Source: Granulicella paludicola (GTDB taxonomy: Bacteria; Acidobacteriota; Terriglobia; Terriglobales; Acidobacteriaceae). From it: a DNA stretch of 64,000 nt. The DNA lies in NCBI RefSeq assembly GCF_025685545.1, contig NZ_JAGSYC010000024.1, forward strand, positions 62,001-126,000, given 5' to 3'. This document shows, piece after piece, positions 1,101-48,796 of the stretch. The notes beneath the pieces were generated by a model. That model saw nothing but the letters and a program-made list of their open reading frames with translations. It ran no database searches and was not told the origin of the DNA. A program made the position numbers and the translations under genes. Each line of letters begins with the position of its first letter. Within the stretch, counting starts at the first letter, position 1.

Positions 1101-3005
1101 TTAGGACCTGTAGGTTGGTTCTGGGTTCCAGAGGAGGAGCATGAGGGCAAGGCCGGAAAGGCAGAGGCCGAGGATCTGGTCTTCGCTATAGTGCCAGTCG
1201 ATGTTGACGAGCGTGGAGCCAGCGGCGGTGATCGGGATGACGAGCAGGCCGTCGTCGCGCTGCAGGTGTTTGGGTGCGAAGGGTACCGGGTCGGCTTCGC
1301 CGCGCTCGGTGACGCGCCAGCTGGGGTAGTCGCGGAGATTGAGAATGAGGTAGCCGGGGCGGTTGGTATGCACGGTGATGCTGTGCGGGGCTGGGGTGGA
1401 GAGGGTCTGGGAGTCGGGGATGGGAGTGTCGTCGGTGGTGATGCTGGGGTCGAGCTCGGCGGCGGTGGGCGTGGTGTGCAGCGCCTGTGCGTTAGGGCTG
1501 GTTGCGAGCCACCAGCCGGGGTTGTTGGAGCGGAGGGTGTCGTTGTCGGCGGCGATGGGTGTGTACTCGTCGGTGGGGGGAGCGCCGTGGTGCGTGGTGT
1601 AGAGGGTGGTGATGGTGTTGGGTTGGTCGGGGGTGTCGCAGGCCTGCGCGTAGAGGTGATAGCCGAGGAAGGTGAGGAGGAGTGGCAGGGCAAGAGCTGT
1701 GGCTGCGGACAAAAAGACAAATGCAGGGGGCTCTCCACTGCGTCTGCGCTCTGCTTCGTCTTCGGTCGAGATGACAGCGTCCTTGGTGGGATGGTGAGTG
1801 AGACGGTGGATCAGGAGGGCCAGGGCGAAGGCGAGGACTGCGGAGAGGAGGGTGAGGAGTCGCCAGGGGAACTGGAGGTATTGGAGGTTGGGCAGGTGCT
1901 GCCAGAGGAGCGACGAGGCGGGTGTGAGCAGCAGGCCGATGACCACGGTGAGGATGGTGAGCGTGGTGGCGAGGGTGCGGGTGGACTCGGCTGAGGCGAG
2001 GTCGCGGTCGGTCGTGTCGGCGGCGTCTTCGAGAGGTGACGGTGCGAAGAGGAAGAGGCCAACGAGGGTGAAGATAGTCAGCGCGAGGAGGGTGAGAGCG
2101 AGGGTGCTTGCGGTGTGGTTGACGGCGTTATGCGCGGCGTCGGCGGTGGTGGTGAAGAGGTAGTTGTCCTGCACGCGCATGTTGGGGATGACGGCCATGG
2201 CGACCTGTACGAACTGGCGTTCGTACGCGGCGGGGATGAGGTAGAAGGCGGGGAGGGTGAGTCCGAGGAGGGTGGCGTAGAGGAAGGTTTGGGTGAGGCG
2301 GAAGGGGCTGGGGCTTGCAGGTTGGAAAGCTCCGGAGAGTGTGGGGGCGTCCAGCTCTGTCGGGGTCCTTCGGCTGCGCTGCGCTCCGCTCAGGATGACG
2401 AACAGTATGCGGAGGAGGGCTAGCAGGGCGAAGGCGTAGCTGGCCATGACGGCGGCAGGGGCGTTGGTGAGCCAGAGCAGGGCGAGGGGGATCGCGAGGC
2501 CACGGACGGTGGGGCGTGGTTTGAAGAGGCCTGCGAAGAGGAGCGGGATCCAGGCGGCGGCGAGGAGTTCGGCGAAGGCGGTGCGCTCGTAGGCGCAGAA
2601 GAGGATGTAGGGGTTGGCGAGATAGAAGGCTGCGGCGATGAAGGCTGCGGTGGTGGAGGTGTACTGCCTGGCGAGGTGGTACATCGCGAAGCCCGAGGCG
2701 AGGAGCGCGAGGAAGATGTACGCGATGGGAGCGGCGGTGATGGGGAGGACGCTGGTGAGCGCTGCGCCGAAGAGCCAGGAGAGCGGCGGATAGAAGAGGA
2801 AGCGGGGTTCGCCGGCGTTCCATGCGGGCGTGATGGCCCAGCGGGGGTAGTCGCCCTGGCCGAGTTGGTGGGCGGCGTCGAGCCAGCTCTGGAGATGGAA
2901 GGACATGTCCTGCCCGCAGGAGATGCCGTGCAGGAGCAGCGGCAGGATGGCGAGGAGGGCCGCGATCGGCAGCAGGAACAAGGGGAGTTTGGTGGTGCGC
3001 GGCAT
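1101..3005 (-). CDS. Large polytopic membrane protein (6-pyruvoyl-tetrahydropterin-synthase-related / YfhO-like type)
   Basis: Inner-membrane protein of 634 aa with about 10-12 hydrophobic segments. N-terminus: signal-anchor at residues 7-27, then SCGQDMSFHLQSWLDAA and YPRWAITPAWNAGEPRF. This D-x-x-x-H pattern with a following proline/aromatic loop is typical of predicted integral membrane proteins related to lipid-linked glycosyltransferases (COG5617-like). Substrate unknown. A large soluble domain lies at about residues 445-600, followed by a final membrane span. Odd: two spans of the protein (about residues 203-214 and 410-429) are encoded by copies of dispersed repeats A and B that recur elsewhere in the window, both in frame and both in loops between membrane spans. 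Start is ATG at 3005; no good SD is visible. Confidence 0.75.
   Translation of the reverse strand: MPRTTKLPLFLLPIAALLAILPLLLHGISCGQDMSFHLQSWLDAAHQLGQGDYPRWAITPAWNAGEPRFLFYPPLSWLFGAALTSVLPITAAPIAYIFLALLASGFAMYHLARQYTSTTAAFIAAAFYLANPYILFCAYERTAFAELLAAAWIPLLFAGLFKPRPTVRGLAIPLALLWLTNAPAAVMASYAFALLALLRILFVILSGAQRSRRTPTELDAPTLSGAFQPASPSPFRLTQTFLYATLLGLTLPAFYLIPAAYERQFVQVAMAVIPNMRVQDNYLFTTTADAAHNAVNHTASTLALTLLALTIFTLVGLFLFAPSPLEDAADTTDRDLASAESTRTLATTLTILTVVIGLLLTPASSLLWQHLPNLQYLQFPWRLLTLLSAVLAFALALLIHRLTHHPTKDAVISTEDEAERRRSGEPPAFVFLSAATALALPLLLTFLGYHLYAQACDTPDQPNTITTLYTTHHGAPPTDEYTPIAADNDTLRSNNPGWWLATSPNAQALHTTPTAAELDPSITTDDTPIPDSQTLSTPAPHSITVHTNRPGYLILNLRDYPSWRVTERGEADPVPFAPKHLQRDDGLLVIPITAAGSTLVNIDWHYSEDQILGLCLSGLALMLLLWNPEPTYRS
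1721..1777 (-). repeat. Dispersed repeat family B, copy inside a membrane-protein gene
   Basis: Core 'ctctccactgcgtctgcgc' followed by 'cttcggtcgagatgac'. Same family as 22218-22271 and 46454-46510. Lies entirely within the 1101-3005 coding sequence without breaking frame, encoding about residues 410-429. Confidence 0.75.
2365..2399 (-). repeat. Dispersed repeat family A, copy inside a membrane-protein gene
   Basis: Read on the minus strand it starts 'gtcatcctgagcgg' and ends 'gaaggac', the signature of family A (also 3079-3170, 13091-13119, 29671-29700, 41404-41438). In frame within the 1101-3005 gene, encoding about residues 203-214 (VILSGAQRSRRT). Confidence 0.8.
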
Positions 3006-3078: not shown

Positions 3079-3170
3079 GTCATCCTGAGCGCAGCGAAGG
3101 ACCTACTTTCTGCCGGTGAGGTATGGATGCCTGCGCCAGAAGCAGACCTTTGCTGCGCTCAGGATGACAA
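3079..3170. repeat. Family A repeats as an inverted pair (large hairpin)
   Basis: 'gtcatcctgagcgcagc' at 3079 faces 'gctgcgctcaggatgac' ending at 3169, giving arms of about 17-23 bp around a loop of roughly 45 nt. It sits in the 216-bp spacer between the membrane-protein gene start (3005) and the MOSC gene stop (3222). The rest of the spacer has no gene. Confidence 0.8.
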
Positions 3171-12986: not shown

Positions 12987-13090
12987 AGTTTGGAGAGGTC
13001 AGTCGATACGGGTGCGGCTACGTCTTTGTCTCAAAGGTGCGTTCAATGGTCCCAGCGGTAAACGGGGATTGCCAACCGAAGCAAGAAGCA

Positions 13091-13119
13091 GGTCTTTCGC
13101 TGCGCTCAGGATGACAATG
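13091..13119 (-). repeat. Dispersed repeat family A copy between rseP and dxr
   Basis: 'ggtctttcgctgcgctcagg' then 'atgacaatg'. A single, unpaired copy. Confidence 0.75.
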
Positions 13120-22217: not shown

Positions 22218-22271
22218 GATGCAGATCTCTCCGCTGCAGCGCATAAAGCCTGCCTTCGGTCGATAGGACAA
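22218..22271 (+). repeat. Dispersed repeat family B copy upstream of uppS
   Basis: 'gatgcagatctctccgctgc' then a variable middle and 'ccttcggtcgataggac'. Intergenic, unlike the two other copies, which are inside genes. Confidence 0.65.
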
Positions 22272-28807: not shown

Positions 28808-28876
28808 AGTGAGAAGACAAGAGTGAAAAGACCAGAGTGAATTCTTCCTTTGTTTCTTCACTCTTGTCTTGTCACT
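28808..28876. terminator. Long dyad between convergent SDR and GT2 genes (bidirectional terminator)
   Basis: 20-nt arms AGTGAGAAGACAAGAGTGAA and TTCACTCTTGTCTTGTCACT pair with one mismatch around a 29-nt loop. The left arm is followed by a degenerate direct copy (aagaccagagtgaa). A T-rich tract, tctatcttttt, follows on the plus strand, as expected of an intrinsic terminator. Confidence 0.75.
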
Positions 28877-29670: not shown

Positions 29671-29741
29671 ATGCAGATCCTTCGCTTCGCTCAGGATGAC
29701 AATGTTTCGCAGGATGACAGTGTTTCTGAGGATGACAATGC
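29671..29741 (-). repeat. Family A repeat with two degenerate tandem tail copies
   Basis: 'ccttcgcttcgctcaggatg' at 29679 onward is a family A copy. It is followed by 'cgcaggatgacagtgttt' and 'ctgaggatgacaatgctt', two partial copies of its end. Lies between the frataxin-like gene stop and the GT2 gene start. Confidence 0.75.
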
Positions 29742-41403: not shown

Positions 41404-41438
41404 ATGCAGATTCCTTCGCTTCACTACGGAATGACAAA
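41404..41438 (+). repeat. Dispersed repeat family A copy, diverged
   Basis: 'atgcagattccttcgcttca' then 'ctacggaatgacaa'. The core has changed compared with other copies. Between hspR and the GT21 gene; the remaining bases of 41266-41568 show no gene. Confidence 0.6.
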
Positions 41439-43039: not shown

Positions 43040-45037
43040 TTATCGGTTGGTGAGGATGGTCTTGCCTCCGGAGTCCGCGAAGATGTGGACTCCGCCGAAC
43101 GGGGTGAGGTCGGGGATGCGCTTGTCGGGGTGATAAGTGAGCAGGAAGATGCGGTGGGAGCCTTGCCAGAGCTGGTGAAGCTGCGAGTCATCGGTGAAGA
43201 TGTGGGGTGAGTTCGGCCAGAAGCTGCCGAACCAGGGACCGTTCTCGTGGCCGTTGACGAGCAGCGTGTTGGGGGCGGGAGTGCGGCTGTAGAAGAGCAG
43301 GGTGGAGCCTGCGGTAAGCTCTCCATCGATGAGGACAAGGTCGCCGGGCTGGCGCACGGCGTCGATCTGCAGAGCGAGATCTTTTGAACCGAGGATGGGA
43401 TAGAAGCGGACCAGGCCTTCGTGCGCGGCGAGCAGGACGGCGGACATCGCGGCGGTGATGAGCAGGTTCGCGAGAAAGGTATGTCCTTTGCGGCGGACAA
43501 GGTAAGCGATGGGGCCAAGCGTCAGCATGCCGAGGGCGACGGTGAGGAGTGGACCGCGGAAGAGTCCCATGGCGCGACCAGTGATGTCGAAGACGTGGCC
43601 GAGCGAGAGGTTGTAGAAGTAGGGATTACTGCTGAGTAGCGAGCTGAGGGTTTCGCCGGGGTGAGGTGTGGGGGCGGTGACAGCGAAGTAACCGCAGACG
43701 AGGAAGAGCAGCGTGCCGAGCGGAACGAGGAAGTAGAACGAACCGCGCAGCGCCTGCAAACGTGCGTTAACGCGAGGCCGGAGGGTGGGTCCGCTGGAGG
43801 TGCTGGCGCCGGGGGCGGCATCGGCGGCGGCAAGGAGTCCTCCGACGAGAAGCGCGAGGGCGGGCAGCGCGGGCAGGTGGTAGTACTCCTGTCGTGAGCT
43901 GAGGGTGAAGAAGCCGAGGATGATACCAGCCCAGAGCAGGAGGGCGAGCGCGGCCTCGTAGCGGCGAGCGGTGGCCTGCATGAGGCTGATGGTGTCAAGG
44001 CCGGAGAAGATGTCGGAGTCGAAGCGGCGTGAGTTGCTGCGGTTGCTGCGGAGCTCGCGCACGGCGTCGATGAGGGCTCCGACGAGGAAGGCGACCCAGG
44101 GGAAGAGCCAGAGCAGGAGCAGGAGCCAGAAGAGAGGGATGGGAACCTGGCCGTAGTCGTGGGGGACGCGCTTGCCGAGGAAGCGGGCGATGTGCTCGTT
44201 GTAGAGGTAGAACCAGGCCCAGCCAGCGTGGGCGGGCAAGCCTGCGGCTTGGGCTTCGGCGGGCATGGCGATGGCGGGGTTTCGTAGCGCGGCGAGGATG
44301 TGCCAGGGAGCGGCGATGAGCAGGAAGAAGACGGTGGCTGCGGGGATCTGGAGTTTGGCGAGCAGGCGAAGGCTGCTGGTGATGGCGAGATAGAGGAAGA
44401 CGAAGAGTAGCGGAAAGACGACGCCGATGAGTCCTTTAGTGAGGACGTCGAGAGCGAGGACGGCGGCGAAGCCGTGCATGGGCAGAAGCGCGGAGCGGCC
44501 TTCGCGGATATGATCGAGCGCGATGAGGAAGAGATGGATGGAAAGCGTCATCCACAGCGCGATGAGGATGTCGGGGATGTAGAACCGGGTGTAGAGGTAG
44601 GGGCCGAGGGCGGTGGCCATGGCGAGGGCGGCGTAGAGACCTCCGCGATCGGGGGCTGACGCGGGCGAGACAGCACGGAAGAGGCGGATACCGAGCGCGT
44701 AGGTGGCGAAGAGGAGAGCGAGCACGCCGAGGGCGAGTGGGAGCCGAGCAGCCCAGTCGTGCGGGCCGAAGAGACGCATGGAGCCGGCGGCCATCCAGTA
44801 CATGAGGGGCGGCTTGTCGAAGAAACGGATGCCGTCGATGGTGGGGGTGACGAAGTCGTGCCGCTGCAGCATCTCGCGGGCGATCTGGATGTAGACGGAG
44901 TCGACGTCGTCGAGCAGGCCGGGCGTGAAGAGGCAACCGATCTGGAGGACGAGCCAGGGCAGGGTGATGAGGGCAAGCGAAGAGAGGCGCCAGGACTTTG
45001 CGGGCGCGTGGTGCGTGATGCTGTGGGTTGCGTTCAC
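43040..45037 (-). CDS. GT39-like membrane glycosyltransferase (ArnT/PMT_2 type), 1
   Basis: Inner-membrane lipid-linked sugar transferase of 665 aa, 10-12 spans then a soluble C-terminal domain. Seen: LLDDVDSVYIQIAREML near residue 40 with the catalytic acidic pair, GIRFFDKPPLMYWMAAGSMRLFG, then PAHAGWAWFYLYNEHIARFLGKRVPHDYG around residue 270. This is the order of the ArnT (aminoarabinose to lipid A) and protein mannosyltransferase family. Real sugar and acceptor unknown. GTG start at 45037 overlaps the stop of the upstream GT39 gene by 4 bp (GTGA), giving translational coupling. Confidence 0.88.
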   Translation of the reverse strand: MNATHSITHHAPAKSWRLSSLALITLPWLVLQIGCLFTPGLLDDVDSVYIQIAREMLQRHDFVTPTIDGIRFFDKPPLMYWMAAGSMRLFGPHDWAARLPLALGVLALLFATYALGIRLFRAVSPASAPDRGGLYAALAMATALGPYLYTRFYIPDILIALWMTLSIHLFLIALDHIREGRSALLPMHGFAAVLALDVLTKGLIGVVFPLLFVFLYLAITSSLRLLAKLQIPAATVFFLLIAAPWHILAALRNPAIAMPAEAQAAGLPAHAGWAWFYLYNEHIARFLGKRVPHDYGQVPIPLFWLLLLLWLFPWVAFLVGALIDAVRELRSNRSNSRRFDSDIFSGLDTISLMQATARRYEAALALLLWAGIILGFFTLSSRQEYYHLPALPALALLVGGLLAAADAAPGASTSSGPTLRPRVNARLQALRGSFYFLVPLGTLLFLVCGYFAVTAPTPHPGETLSSLLSSNPYFYNLSLGHVFDITGRAMGLFRGPLLTVALGMLTLGPIAYLVRRKGHTFLANLLITAAMSAVLLAAHEGLVRFYPILGSKDLALQIDAVRQPGDLVLIDGELTAGSTLLFYSRTPAPNTLLVNGHENGPWFGSFWPNSPHIFTDDSQLHQLWQGSHRIFLLTYHPDKRIPDLTPFGGVHIFADSGGKTILTNR

Positions 45038-47076
45038 TGAAGGTCTTTCATGGAAGAGGTTGGATCGAGGGGGCGGTCGGTGAAGAGGGCTTTGCCGGAG
45101 GCTTCGGTGATCAGGATTTTGCGTGAGCCGAGGAGGTGGTCAACCTGATCGCGGAGCTCGAGGGGGACGAAGAGGATTTTACGGGGGCCGGTGCCCCATG
45201 CGGCGAGGAGTTGCTGATGGGTGAGGAAGAGGGATGGGGCGTCTGGGAAGGTGCTGCCGAAGAGCATGGAGGTGGTGCGGCCGTCGACCAGAGAGACATG
45301 ACGATGGAGGTAGAAGGGGATGGAGGAGCCGTAGGCCTGATCTCCGAAGAGAAGGATTTGCGAACCGGGCGCGATGCGGTGCGTGGCTTCGAGGGATTCG
45401 ATGGTCTGCGCGAAGCTGGCGGAGGAGAGCATCGGGGCGAAGCGGAGCAGGGCGAGGTGCGCGGCGACGAAGAAGACGGCGCTGGTGGCGGCGATGGTCA
45501 GCATCGCGGCGAGTTCTTTGCGCCGAGTGTGTAGCAGCCAGGCGAGGCTGGGACCGACGAGGAAGGCCAGGGCGGCGAGGATGGCGGGAAGGCGCAGGGC
45601 GGCGAAGGAGGTGTCGGTGAGGTCGAAAAAATGGGACATCGATAGGGTGTAGTCGCCGACGCCGCGATGGGCGAGGGCGGAACCGATGTCGGGGTTGTAG
45701 GGGAGGGCGCGGGAGGACCAGAGGCCAACGGTGAGGGCGGTGGTGATAAGGAGCCCGAGGACGGTGTAGGCGGCGAAGGCGAAGGTGGTGGCGCTGGTCG
45801 AGGTTTGAGGGGATTCAGCCCATGTCCCAGCGGCGGGACATGGGGCACCCAGATTGGTAGTTCGAGGTGAGAGCGCGGCAGCCAGGAGCATCAGGAGCGG
45901 GAGATAGACGGGGAAGGTGTAGTATTCCTGATTGGTCGAGAGCGAGAAGAAACAGAGGACCAGCGCGGAGAAGATGCCGAGCAGCAAGATGGTGCGGGAT
46001 GCGCGGGCGGGGGCGAGGAGTTCCGTGCGGCGACGCCATGCTGTGAAGATGGCGGCGGGAGCGAAGAGGCTCCAGGGGAAGAGCCAGACGAGGTGCAACG
46101 ACCAGTACAGCGCGAAGGGGAGCTTGTTGTAGTCGCGGGGCAGACGCTGGCCGAGGAAGCGCAGTAGGTGCTCGTTGACGAAGTAGAACCAGAAGAAGCC
46201 GTGGCCGGGAGCGAAGCCGAAGCCGCCGAGGCTGCCGGTGTTGCGAAGGCCGGCGAGGATGTGCCACGGGGCGGCGATGGCGAGGAAGAGCAGCGTGCCG
46301 GTGAAGGGTCTCAGCTCGCGCCAGCGGGAGAGCTGCTTCGTGATTGCGAGATAGAGTGCGACGGTGGCGAGAAAAAAGACGGGGGCGATGAGGCCCTTGG
46401 TGAGGGTGGCGAGGGCGAGGGTGGCCCACATGGCAAGAGCGGTGGCAGTTTGCGATGCAGATCTCTCCACTGCGTCCGCAAATTGCGCGGACTTCGGTCG
46501 AGATGACAATTTTGTTGTCTGGGTGTCGTCGAGGATTCGTTGGAAAAGATAGAGCGCGAAGGCAAGCAGCAGGGAGAGCAGGGCGTCGGGGATGAAGACG
46601 CGTGTGAAGAGGAAGGTGCCTGCGGAGGTGAGGAGGAAGATGGCGGTGAGGAGCGCGGCTGTTTCGTTGAAGGCGCGGCGGGACCAGGCGTAGCCGAGCA
46701 GCGCGAGTCCGAGGATGGTGAGCGCGAGCGGCAGATGGATGGCGAAGGCCGGGTGTGCGCTGAAGAGACGAAGGCTGACAGCCGCGATCCAATAGGGGAG
46801 TGGCGGTTTTTCAAGGTAACGGATGCCGTCGACGTGCAGGGTGACCCAGTCGCCGGTAGAGAGCATGGCCTGTGCGGCCTGTGCGTGGGTGGCGTCGGCA
46901 TCGTCAAGCAGCGTTGGGCCTGCGAGGGCGGAGGTGAAGATCGCCAGCCACAGCGTGAGGAGGATGCAGAGGTGGGGGGCGCGCCAGCGTCCGGCTAGCA
47001 CGGCAGAAGGGGAGGCGGAGATCGCAGGGTTGCGGTCTGTTTGCTGTCCGATGTCTGTGGCTGTCGTGGTTCCCAT
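45034..47076 (-). CDS. GT39-like membrane glycosyltransferase (ArnT/PMT_2 type), 2
   Basis: Homologous in order to the downstream gene, 680 aa. Seen: LLDDADATHAQAAQAML, GIRYLEKPPLPYWIAAVSLRLF near the N-terminus, PGHGFFWFYFVNEHLLRFLGQRLPRDYNKLP-type motif around residue 290, and a long soluble tail. ATG at 47076 chosen; an in-frame extension upstream to 47532 is antisense to ppx and has no homology. Odd: residues about 189-208 (SSRPKSAQFADAVERSASQ) and about 409-420 (APCPAAGTW region) are encoded by repeats B and E, in frame, in loops. Confidence 0.86.
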   Translation of the reverse strand: MGTTTATDIGQQTDRNPAISASPSAVLAGRWRAPHLCILLTLWLAIFTSALAGPTLLDDADATHAQAAQAMLSTGDWVTLHVDGIRYLEKPPLPYWIAAVSLRLFSAHPAFAIHLPLALTILGLALLGYAWSRRAFNETAALLTAIFLLTSAGTFLFTRVFIPDALLSLLLAFALYLFQRILDDTQTTKLSSRPKSAQFADAVERSASQTATALAMWATLALATLTKGLIAPVFFLATVALYLAITKQLSRWRELRPFTGTLLFLAIAAPWHILAGLRNTGSLGGFGFAPGHGFFWFYFVNEHLLRFLGQRLPRDYNKLPFALYWSLHLVWLFPWSLFAPAAIFTAWRRRTELLAPARASRTILLLGIFSALVLCFFSLSTNQEYYTFPVYLPLLMLLAAALSPRTTNLGAPCPAAGTWAESPQTSTSATTFAFAAYTVLGLLITTALTVGLWSSRALPYNPDIGSALAHRGVGDYTLSMSHFFDLTDTSFAALRLPAILAALAFLVGPSLAWLLHTRRKELAAMLTIAATSAVFFVAAHLALLRFAPMLSSASFAQTIESLEATHRIAPGSQILLFGDQAYGSSIPFYLHRHVSLVDGRTTSMLFGSTFPDAPSLFLTHQQLLAAWGTGPRKILFVPLELRDQVDHLLGSRKILITEASGKALFTDRPLDPTSSMKDLQ
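45818..45850 (-). repeat. Dispersed repeat family E copy inside a GT39 gene
   Basis: 'gcccatgtcccagcggcggg' then 'acatggggcaccc', a CATGTCCC/GGGACATG hairpin as in 7714-7746. In frame, in the predicted loop near residues 409-420 of the GT39 protein. Confidence 0.7.
46454..46510 (-). repeat. Dispersed repeat family B copy inside a GT39 gene
   Basis: 'gatgcagatctctccactgc' then a variable middle and 'acttcggtcgagatgacaa'. In frame; encodes about residues 189-208. Confidence 0.75.
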
Positions 47077-47221
47077 AGCTGCTTTGAGATTCGGCGATGT
47101 ACTGCAGAATGCTCTGTAGTAAGGATATCGGACGGTTGTGGATTGCAGGCCGGTGCGAGGTGCTTTCTCAGCATGTATCGTGATCGAAAGAGCGTTTCTG
47201 GTTGAAGGGGAAGTGTTACCT

Positions 47222-48796
47222 ATGCCTACGTTTGCAGCGATCGATATTGGTTCGAACTCATGCCGCCTGGCGATTGCGTCGGTGCAGCAGCACAAGCTGA
47301 AGATTCTGCATGAGGATCGCGAGGTGACGCGGCTGGGCGAGAGTGTCTTCGATGCCGGGGTAATCTCTCCAGAGGCAATGGCCGCGACGGTGGATGCGCT
47401 GAAGCGATTCCAGAAGGCGGTGCAAGCGCATGTGGTGGACAAGGTGCGGGTGGTGGCGACGAGCGCGACGCGCGATGCGCGGAACTCAGCGGCGTTCAAG
47501 GCGTGGGTGAAATCGACGACCGGTTGGGACATGGAGGTGATTTCAGGTCTCGAAGAAGGTCGGCTGATTCACCTCGGCGTCGTGACGCATGAGGCTGGAG
47601 CGCGCGGCAAATGTATGCTGATCGATCTTGGCGGAGGCAGCTGCGAGGTCACGGTGTCGGAGAACGGCCGCATCAAGGAGATGGTGAGCCTGCCGCTGGG
47701 CGCGGTGCGATTGCAGCAGGAGTTTCTGCGCAACGATCCTCCGGGCAAGGATGATATTGCGCGGCTGAAGAAGTTTATCGACCGCGAGTTGAAGCGCGGC
47801 GAGCGCAAGCTGGGACAGCCGAAGGTGGGGTTGGTGATTGCGACGTCGGGTACAGCGGCGGCGCTGGCTAGTGTGGGCGTGGAGGAGATCGTCGCGGCTA
47901 AGAAGCCGTTGAAGGCGACGCGGACGGTGCGGACGCGCGCGAAGGCAGGCTATGTGGTACTGTCGGCGGAGACGAAGGCGGTGCGCTGGCTGGCGGAACG
48001 GCTGCTGAAGATGAACAACGCGCAGCGGGCGGCGGTGCCGGGCATCGGGCCGAAGCGTTCGGAGATCATCTCAGGCGGAGCGCAGGTATATGCGGCGCTG
48101 CTGGAGCGGTTCGGACTGAAGGGTTTCCGGTATTCTCCGCTGGGGTTGCGGGATGGTGTGCTGGCGCAGATGCTGGCGGACTCGGATGTGCGGGCGAGCG
48201 CTCACCAGACGATGGAGGCAGAGCGCTGGGAGGGTATACACGAGGTCTGCCGCCGATATGGTGTAAACCCGCGGATGGCAGAGCCGGAACGGGTGCATGC
48301 GGGGCAGCTCTTCGATCAACTGCAGAGAGTGCATGAACTGCCGCCGGAGTATCGGCTGTGGCTGGAGTCAGCGGCGATGATGCAGGGAGTGGGCAAGTTC
48401 CTGAATCACCAGGGGCACCATCGCCACTCGCAGTACATCATTGCGCACTCGGAGATCTTTGGATTTTCGCCGTCGCAGCGGGCGATTGTGGCTGCGATTG
48501 CACGATACCTAGGGCGCAGCCGGCCGGATCCGATGGACCGCACGATGCGCATGGTGCCGGTGGACGAGCATATCCATGTGCAGCGCGCCGTGGTGCTGCT
48601 GCGGCTGGCGCAGGCGCTGAATCAGGATCGGGCGACGGATGCGGTGAAGCTGCACACGAAGGTGTATCCGAAGCGCGTGTTATTGCAGTTGCTGCCTGCG
48701 CGTGGGCGCGCCGATCTTGAGGTGTGGGCGCTGAAGAAAGAGGCGGATTATTTCCGCGAGGTCTTCCGGCGGGAGCTCTTGGTCGACGTGGAATAG
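47222..48796 (+). CDS. ppx: Exopolyphosphatase / guanosine pentaphosphatase (Ppx/GppA)
   Basis: Hydrolyses polyphosphate (and possibly pppGpp), 524 aa. Seen: actin-like ATPase fold with FAAIDIGSNSCRLAIA, VRVVATSATRDA, a second phosphate loop MLIDLGGGSCEVTV, and AVPGIGPKRSEIISGGAQVYA, then a C-terminal HD-type domain with LNHQGHHRHSQYIIAHSE. ATG at 47222 chosen because GAAGGGGAAG precedes it by about 10 nt. Tail overlaps the convergent sixA gene by 49 bp. Confidence 0.93.
   Translation: MPTFAAIDIGSNSCRLAIASVQQHKLKILHEDREVTRLGESVFDAGVISPEAMAATVDALKRFQKAVQAHVVDKVRVVATSATRDARNSAAFKAWVKSTTGWDMEVISGLEEGRLIHLGVVTHEAGARGKCMLIDLGGGSCEVTVSENGRIKEMVSLPLGAVRLQQEFLRNDPPGKDDIARLKKFIDRELKRGERKLGQPKVGLVIATSGTAAALASVGVEEIVAAKKPLKATRTVRTRAKAGYVVLSAETKAVRWLAERLLKMNNAQRAAVPGIGPKRSEIISGGAQVYAALLERFGLKGFRYSPLGLRDGVLAQMLADSDVRASAHQTMEAERWEGIHEVCRRYGVNPRMAEPERVHAGQLFDQLQRVHELPPEYRLWLESAAMMQGVGKFLNHQGHHRHSQYIIAHSEIFGFSPSQRAIVAAIARYLGRSRPDPMDRTMRMVPVDEHIHVQRAVVLLRLAQALNQDRATDAVKLHTKVYPKRVLLQLLPARGRADLEVWALKKEADYFREVFRRELLVDVE

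Follow-up and report, generated by a model that had tools for sequence, protein, structure and literature searches.

Short hairpin repeats, very probably mobile, inserted in frame into the loops of a membrane protein of Acidobacteriaceae

Palindromic repeats that are read in frame within genes are already known, and the selfish repeats of this kind are best known from Rickettsia. The RPE have been described as inserted in frame in unrelated protein-coding genes (PMC3733652, PMC10969869). Two of them, RPE-4 and RPE-6, are placed in the superfamily of CGTC/TGTC-tagged REPs in the survey by Di Nocera et al. 2013 (PMC3733652 section 6), where many intragenic REPs are also described. According to this survey, the tag of these REPs is followed by AT, the stem is 8-9 bp in length with AT in its first two positions, the loop is 4-5 and the unpaired tail is mostly CCA; the units occur mainly as head-to-head pairs and are described there as not associated with tyrosine transposase genes (PMC3733652). 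Different REPs have been noted at approximately the same site of recB in two Xanthomonas species (PMC3733652 section 15), and acidobacterial tyrosine transposases (TIRYTs) flanked by inverted repeats are also on record (PMC3733652 section 16). Section 4 of the survey names five phyla for the CGTC repeats and Acidobacteria is not among them (PMC3733652). Literature searches returned no description of intragenic REPs in Acidobacteria.

The locus compared here belongs to an Acidobacteriaceae source genome of 4.96 Mb in 26 contigs and lies within a stretch of 64,000 nucleotides, the whole of which is referred to as the window. Judged from sequence comparison, short mobile hairpin repeats have very probably been inserted in frame into loops of the membrane protein encoded by the following host gene.

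1101..3005, minus strand: host gene, a polytopic membrane protein of 634 aa with orthologues in Acidobacteriaceae.
2364..2399, minus strand: repeat A, 36 nt, in frame (phase 0), residues 203-214 (VILSGAQRSRRT), in loop 1 of the host gene.
1719..1775, minus strand: repeat B, 57 nt, in frame (phase 0), residues 411-429 (VISTEDEAERRRSGEPPAF), in loop 3 of the host gene.

An earlier note on this DNA had read A and B in frame in this gene and assigned their residues to predicted loops between membrane spans. Both statements hold, with the ends and residue numbers now as listed. Searches of Pfam, NCBIfam and the PDB gave no match for the host protein and hence no family name.

Similar to the CGTC/TGTC-tagged REPs, as far as the survey characterises them, A and B combine a TGTC/CGTC tag and a following AT with a short unit, the absence of an adjoining dedicated transposase gene and the presence of intragenic copies. 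The tag was recorded in 27/28 intergenic and 14/16 in-gene strict A/B units of a 1.19-Mb sample of the source genome (C20 and part of C17); the AT after it is built into the search pattern and is present in the window copies. A differs from the published description in its short interrupted stem, rare closing AT and TGC in place of CCA. The typed A consensus (ending GGAT) has a stem of 5 bp followed by an internal loop, and the unit of subfamily F has one of 6 bp with a loop of 3. The ends of 34 A units read GAC in 24, GAA in 8 and GAT in 2, and the next three bases are TGC in 19/34 and CCA in 0/34. A and B work like these REPs and like RPE but are not filed as members of the superfamily, as they miss the CCA tail and the length of stem given in the survey and, in most copies, the closing AT. 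The likeness to RPE proposed in the earlier note is upheld, RPE-4 and RPE-6 being members of the superfamily which A and B resemble (PMC3733652). The term palindrome used there fits poorly, as window A, window B and the typed A consensus fold no better than shuffled sequences (z +0.30, +0.43 and +0.34).

A genome-wide copy count, proposed earlier as a check, places A at 77 sites in the genome (23-base pattern, up to 3 mismatches) and B at 47 (17-base pattern, up to 1 mismatch), with 0 for both reversed-pattern controls; at 3 mismatches the B pattern is noisy (83 vs 18 in the control). The A pattern is present in 115/150 genomes of Acidobacteriaceae, with 0 control matches in every genome. The over-represented 12-mers of the 1.19-Mb sample group as A, a sister unit TTTGTCATTCCCGCAGGG, AGGGAGTAGGGA, an A-tail word, GGGCTGAAGCCC and B. 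The copies in the window outside the host gene include the following.

3079..3168, no strand assigned: inverted pair of A units, intergenic, just upstream of the host gene.
13089..13115, minus strand: single A unit.
29674..29700, minus strand: single A unit.
41406..41436, minus strand: unit of the sister subfamily X (GTCATTCCG...GGAATC; also written GTCATTCC...GGAATC), not A.
22221..22269, minus strand: degenerate B unit, adjoining a subfamily F unit (GTCATTCCC) that ends at about 22323.

These are the copies to which the earlier note had pointed; three are A and one is a degenerate B, but the copy given at 41404 belongs to the sister subfamily. Other repeats were seen in passing. A short intergenic repeat of type AGGGAGTAGGGA lies at about 940-975 of the window, its 12-mer counted 17 times vs 0.05 expected in the 1.19-Mb sample. 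An inverted repeat at 28808-28876 of the window has 25-base arms, 88% complementary and spaced by 19 bases. Three F units (GTCATTCCCGCAGGGA) stand in tandem at G000 C20:58656-58730 with a spacing of 37 bases.

The host protein was found in 20/28 genomes of the same genus, its own included. A scan of named genomes gave 54 orthologue loci, of which 12 were removed as duplicates, and the 42 new loci brought the total to 60 rows; the fragments L082, L083 and L093 and second matches of genomes already present were excluded from the first alignment. In the alignments, blocks at approximately 203-233 and 403-434 are absent or far shorter in most orthologues. No other aligned row has the window's residues at the B site, and two relatives, G008 and G012, have A units at the A site that are read in another frame. 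This alignment of orthologues had also been suggested beforehand, and the lack of the A/B residues in most orthologues supports insertion. The expectation that relatives would lack the residues is borne out for most, but several contain other repeats in the same loops. The earlier claim of direct evidence for movement was too strong: insertion into coding sequence and its tolerance in loops stand, but movement is inferred from a comparison in which the nearest orthologues are about 60% identical, loop alignment is uncertain at 40-60% identity, and exact insert ends and target duplication are not visible.

Repeat-bearing loops occur at residues of approximately 200-240, 318-347 and 400-437 of the host protein in many species. 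Five repeat families, A-E, are found in these three loops in different frames, family C having the form GGGTGCCCCA-hairpin-TGGG and family D the form GAGGCTTCAGCC. Fixed signatures matched 34 times in the three loops, in 21/60 rows, and 5 times elsewhere in the gene; the loops comprise 12,195 of the 99,531 aligned coding bases, inserts counted. A accounts for 6 further positions in the loops of 5 other rows. The sense orientation is used in 33/34 loop matches; A and B are each read in two frames, C in three, and D and E in one each. The remaining match, in L181, is an antisense A match with one mismatch and is likely due to chance; once it is removed, rows with a loop signature number 20/60. 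The non-loop matches comprise one-mismatch A matches of L162 and L206, at residue 159 with no insert, which look like chance; C units of L177 and L180, which precede the first residue of the window protein and may sit in an over-long ORF start; and a doubtful C unit of L194, which is aligned beside residue 477, close to where a cut ORF ends. C-like inserts in loop 1 of L165, L170 and L197 were missed by the regular expression, seen by eye and labelled by hand for the tree only. L193 has a second, degenerate B match beside its B unit, and L199 is counted twice (D and E).

Changes of loop state were counted on a tree of 57 rows (3/60 under 380 aa excluded), built by a quick method with the loop columns removed, in which 20/54 inner branches are open. 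Loop states were labelled by hand, and rows too short to cover loop 2 (4/60) or loop 3 (7/60) were scored as ‘none’ where they are in the tree. When family and frame are distinguished, the three loops require a minimum of 10, 9 and 2 changes, 21 in total; for presence and absence only, the minima are 8, 6 and 2, 16 in total. Within the literature searches made, there is no description of several repeat families that have repeatedly and independently come to occupy one set of three loops. The recB case in Xanthomonas is alike in that different REPs occupy approximately the same coding site in relatives; as described in the survey, that case concerns one gene in two species, whereas here three loops, five families and 21/60 rows (20 without the likely chance match) are involved.

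B is multi-copy in every genome with a loop B (50, 43, 93, 39 and 47 places for L162, L166, L167, L174 and L193; controls 0 or 1), the reversed controls of the B search across genomes being 0-1 and up to 3 in one genome. D occurs at 36 places in G010 and 16 in G025, both of which have D in loop 1, and the control gave 0 in both. One C subtype is present in 8/16 genomes tested, with a control of 0 in all; the other 8/16 have 0 of this subtype, though several have loop C units of other subtypes.

Hydropathy and charge averaged over 47 rows place all three loops between predicted spans, the topology being crude hydropathy, with a length of only a few residues for several of the predicted spans. 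Lysine/arginine exceed acidic residues in each loop (3.7 vs 0.8, 3.9 vs 1.4 and 2.2 vs 0.4), so that a cytoplasmic position is probable for all three under the positive-inside rule. Acidic residues prevail in the long segment 446-616 (8.8 vs 17.3), which has no signature match except the doubtful one of L194. The stretch 156-172 is short, is also rich in lysine/arginine and has no insert.

The inserts are not confined to this protein. A second host gene in the window, overlooked in the earlier note, contains units of B and C.

45034..47532, minus strand: second host gene, a PMT_2-type membrane glycosyltransferase-like protein, its 5′ end probably over-extended.
46460..46507, minus strand: repeat B in the second host, in another frame (SSRPKS..., LSSRPKSAQFADAVERS), residues 342-358.
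45818..45850, minus strand: repeat C (GGGTGCCCCA-hairpin-TGGG) in the second host, residues 561-572.
43040..45037, minus strand: neighbouring paralogue of the second host, in which the B residues are absent.

The loop of this paralogue at the C site is unrelated but not shorter. Further in-frame inserts in the 1.19-Mb sample were found in a class II ribonucleotide reductase with three units, a glycosyltransferase-like protein with A and B, a photolyase-related protein, an S9 peptidase and HemC, and as antisense units in an aldehyde dehydrogenase and in Lon. The gap in a solved relative was examined for HemC and Lon only. HemC aligns with a solved porphobilinogen deaminase as far as residue 325 and resumes at 387, so that 326-386 form an insert where the partner has no gap; Lon has 38 residues vs 10 in its solved relative. 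The approximately 61 extra residues of HemC (G000 C20:523154-524611; L120:3154-4611) lie at the junction of its domains and are made up of one D/E-like and two A units. An A-like unit was also seen by eye at L031 2820-2880 (G000 C19), apparently inside an ilvB-like gene. On the description of RPE in PMC3733652, A, B and their kin are alike in forming in-frame inserts in many unrelated genes. They differ in occurring in another phylum as units of about 25-60 nt, in belonging to several families of which some flank Y1 transposase genes, and in that many species show parallel arrivals in the same loops of a single protein.

The source genome contains 3 Y1_Tnp genes, and such genes were found in 12/15 genomes at 48 places in all; they are called RAYT-like on a Pfam Y1_Tnp match, which covers RAYT and other Y1 transposases alike. 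Flanks within 400 bases were tested for 30 of the 48 places, the overlapping loci being L284/L297, L290/L304 and L282/L289. C lies near 12/30 and D near 9/30 of these loci, at a density about 9 times that farther away, and both sides are occupied by C in 6 and by D in 5. A and B were each found near 1/30, at approximately background density, and none lies within 400 bp of the source genome's own loci (L031-L033). The transposase gene of L032 (G000 C17:2312-5545) lies between C units, with D and E units on one side as well, and that of L031 is flanked, as seen by eye, by other inverted repeats of its own. On this sequence evidence C and D, unlike A and B, have the look of REPs mobilised by a RAYT; similar to REP/RAYT systems and the acidobacterial TIRYTs, as the survey presents them, C and D flank Y1_Tnp genes, in which A and B differ. 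The absence of a helper transposase noted earlier is thus amended by the 3 RAYT-like genes of the genome, although over the loci examined such genes go with C and D. RAYT was rejected as the helper of A/B on the flanks of the 30 Y1_Tnp loci.

The orientation of units relative to genes was also recorded. In unidirectional intergenic regions of the own-genome sample, 21/24 units of A/B type (loose pattern) read in the gene direction, and stricter full-length patterns in the same regions gave 9 sense and 2 antisense for A, 3 and 0 for B, and 6 and 3 for F. Unidirectional regions in the G010 stretches gave 10 sense and 4 antisense. Within genes, the loose pattern gave 34 sense and 23 antisense in the own sample, probably with many chance matches. 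Strict in-gene units at any distance numbered 11 sense and 2 antisense for A, 3 and 0 for B, 2 and 2 for F, and 1 and 1 for X; at more than 150 bases from the ORF start, the counts were 8 and 1, 2 and 0, 1 and 0, and 1 and 1, respectively. That the elements are inserted or retained in a single orientation with respect to transcription is a tentative and rather unlikely proposition. The 21/24 intergenic and 33/34 loop units in the gene direction would then suggest single-stranded DNA as the target, with insertion linked to transcription or replication.

Of all 36 places of D in G010 C1, the 19 before about 2.2 Mb are on the plus strand (0 minus), and those beyond it divide into 4 plus and 13 minus (Fisher p 1e-6, breakpoint chosen post hoc), a strand switch which may point to replication-linked insertion. 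GC skew gave no usable origin or terminus in the stretches examined.

In the relative G003, many A units are paired with their tags outward, about 200 bases apart, in a conserved unit of about 220-240 bases with nested hairpins. Outward-tag pairs number 20 among 72 units in 800 kb of G003 and 2 among 53 units in the own sample. Such pairs, common in G003, may correspond to the head-to-head arrangement reported for the tagged REPs, whereas A and B are mostly single units in their own genome. As many G003 units are symmetrical pairs, the orientation counts above cover the own sample and G010. At loci L209-L236 of G003, a repeat of about 220-240 bases in many copies has an extended flanking inverted repeat (CCACAGAATC/GATTCTGTGG).

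The explanation given high confidence is that two loops received A and B, mobile REP-like repeats of short length, by in-frame insertion and that both were kept because the added polar residues are harmless there. Insertion itself would not be aimed at genes. Insertions that shift the frame, run into a stop, or land in the long C-terminal segment or a membrane span would be removed by purifying selection, so that a few cytoplasmic loops remain as permitted sites. C and D would be mobilised by the RAYT-like Y1 transposases which they flank; A and B, without an adjoining dedicated transposase, may have been moved in trans or may be relics of a lost one.

Harmlessness is challenged by the proposal that the inserts are selected for a function, either as cytoplasmic linkers or as mRNA hairpins slowing translation between membrane spans. 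Their position between predicted spans, their recurrence in the same loops and the single orientation of 33/34 would agree with this, but 39/60 rows have no loop signature, the families, lengths and frames vary, soluble proteins also have inserts, and window A and B fold no better than shuffled sequences; selected function is accordingly judged improbable. It is likewise improbable that the residues are instead ancestral loop sequence, made repeat-like by recombination or gene conversion with intergenic copies and not by insertion of a mobile element. Homology-independent recombination would look alike at this distance, exact ends not being visible, yet repeat-free copies of loop 3 are short and vary little in length, separate arrivals are required for five families in different frames, and C and D adjoin transposase genes.

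Chance matching, in which the likeness to the repeats stems from low-complexity, C- or G-rich codons in the loops, would explain three single-mismatch A matches that have this look (the antisense loop match of L181 and the non-loop matches of L162 and L206). Set against the 39 signature matches found, a data set of the 60 genes with shuffled codons yields about 3.3, and the loops have exact 12-mers and whole hairpins in common with the repeats. Chance is refuted as the source of the main set of matches, and the probability left to it is negligible. Insertion of mobile repeats into tolerant loops is a well-supported reading.

A large family of mostly soil bacteria behaves in the manner known from Rickettsia, with several repeat families at once. 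The many independent arrivals at the same three loops of one protein make a natural map of insertion tolerance in a membrane protein, and the recurrent loop inserts offer a way to ask whether such inserts ever gain function. Peptides such as HPERSEG, VISTEA and GAPYLDSEMW in acidobacterial proteins can derive from repeats and need not be conserved motifs. If the one-orientation reading were true, each lineage would be a natural insertion-scanning experiment on its own proteins, and the cytoplasmic loops of membrane proteins would be among the preferred survivors.
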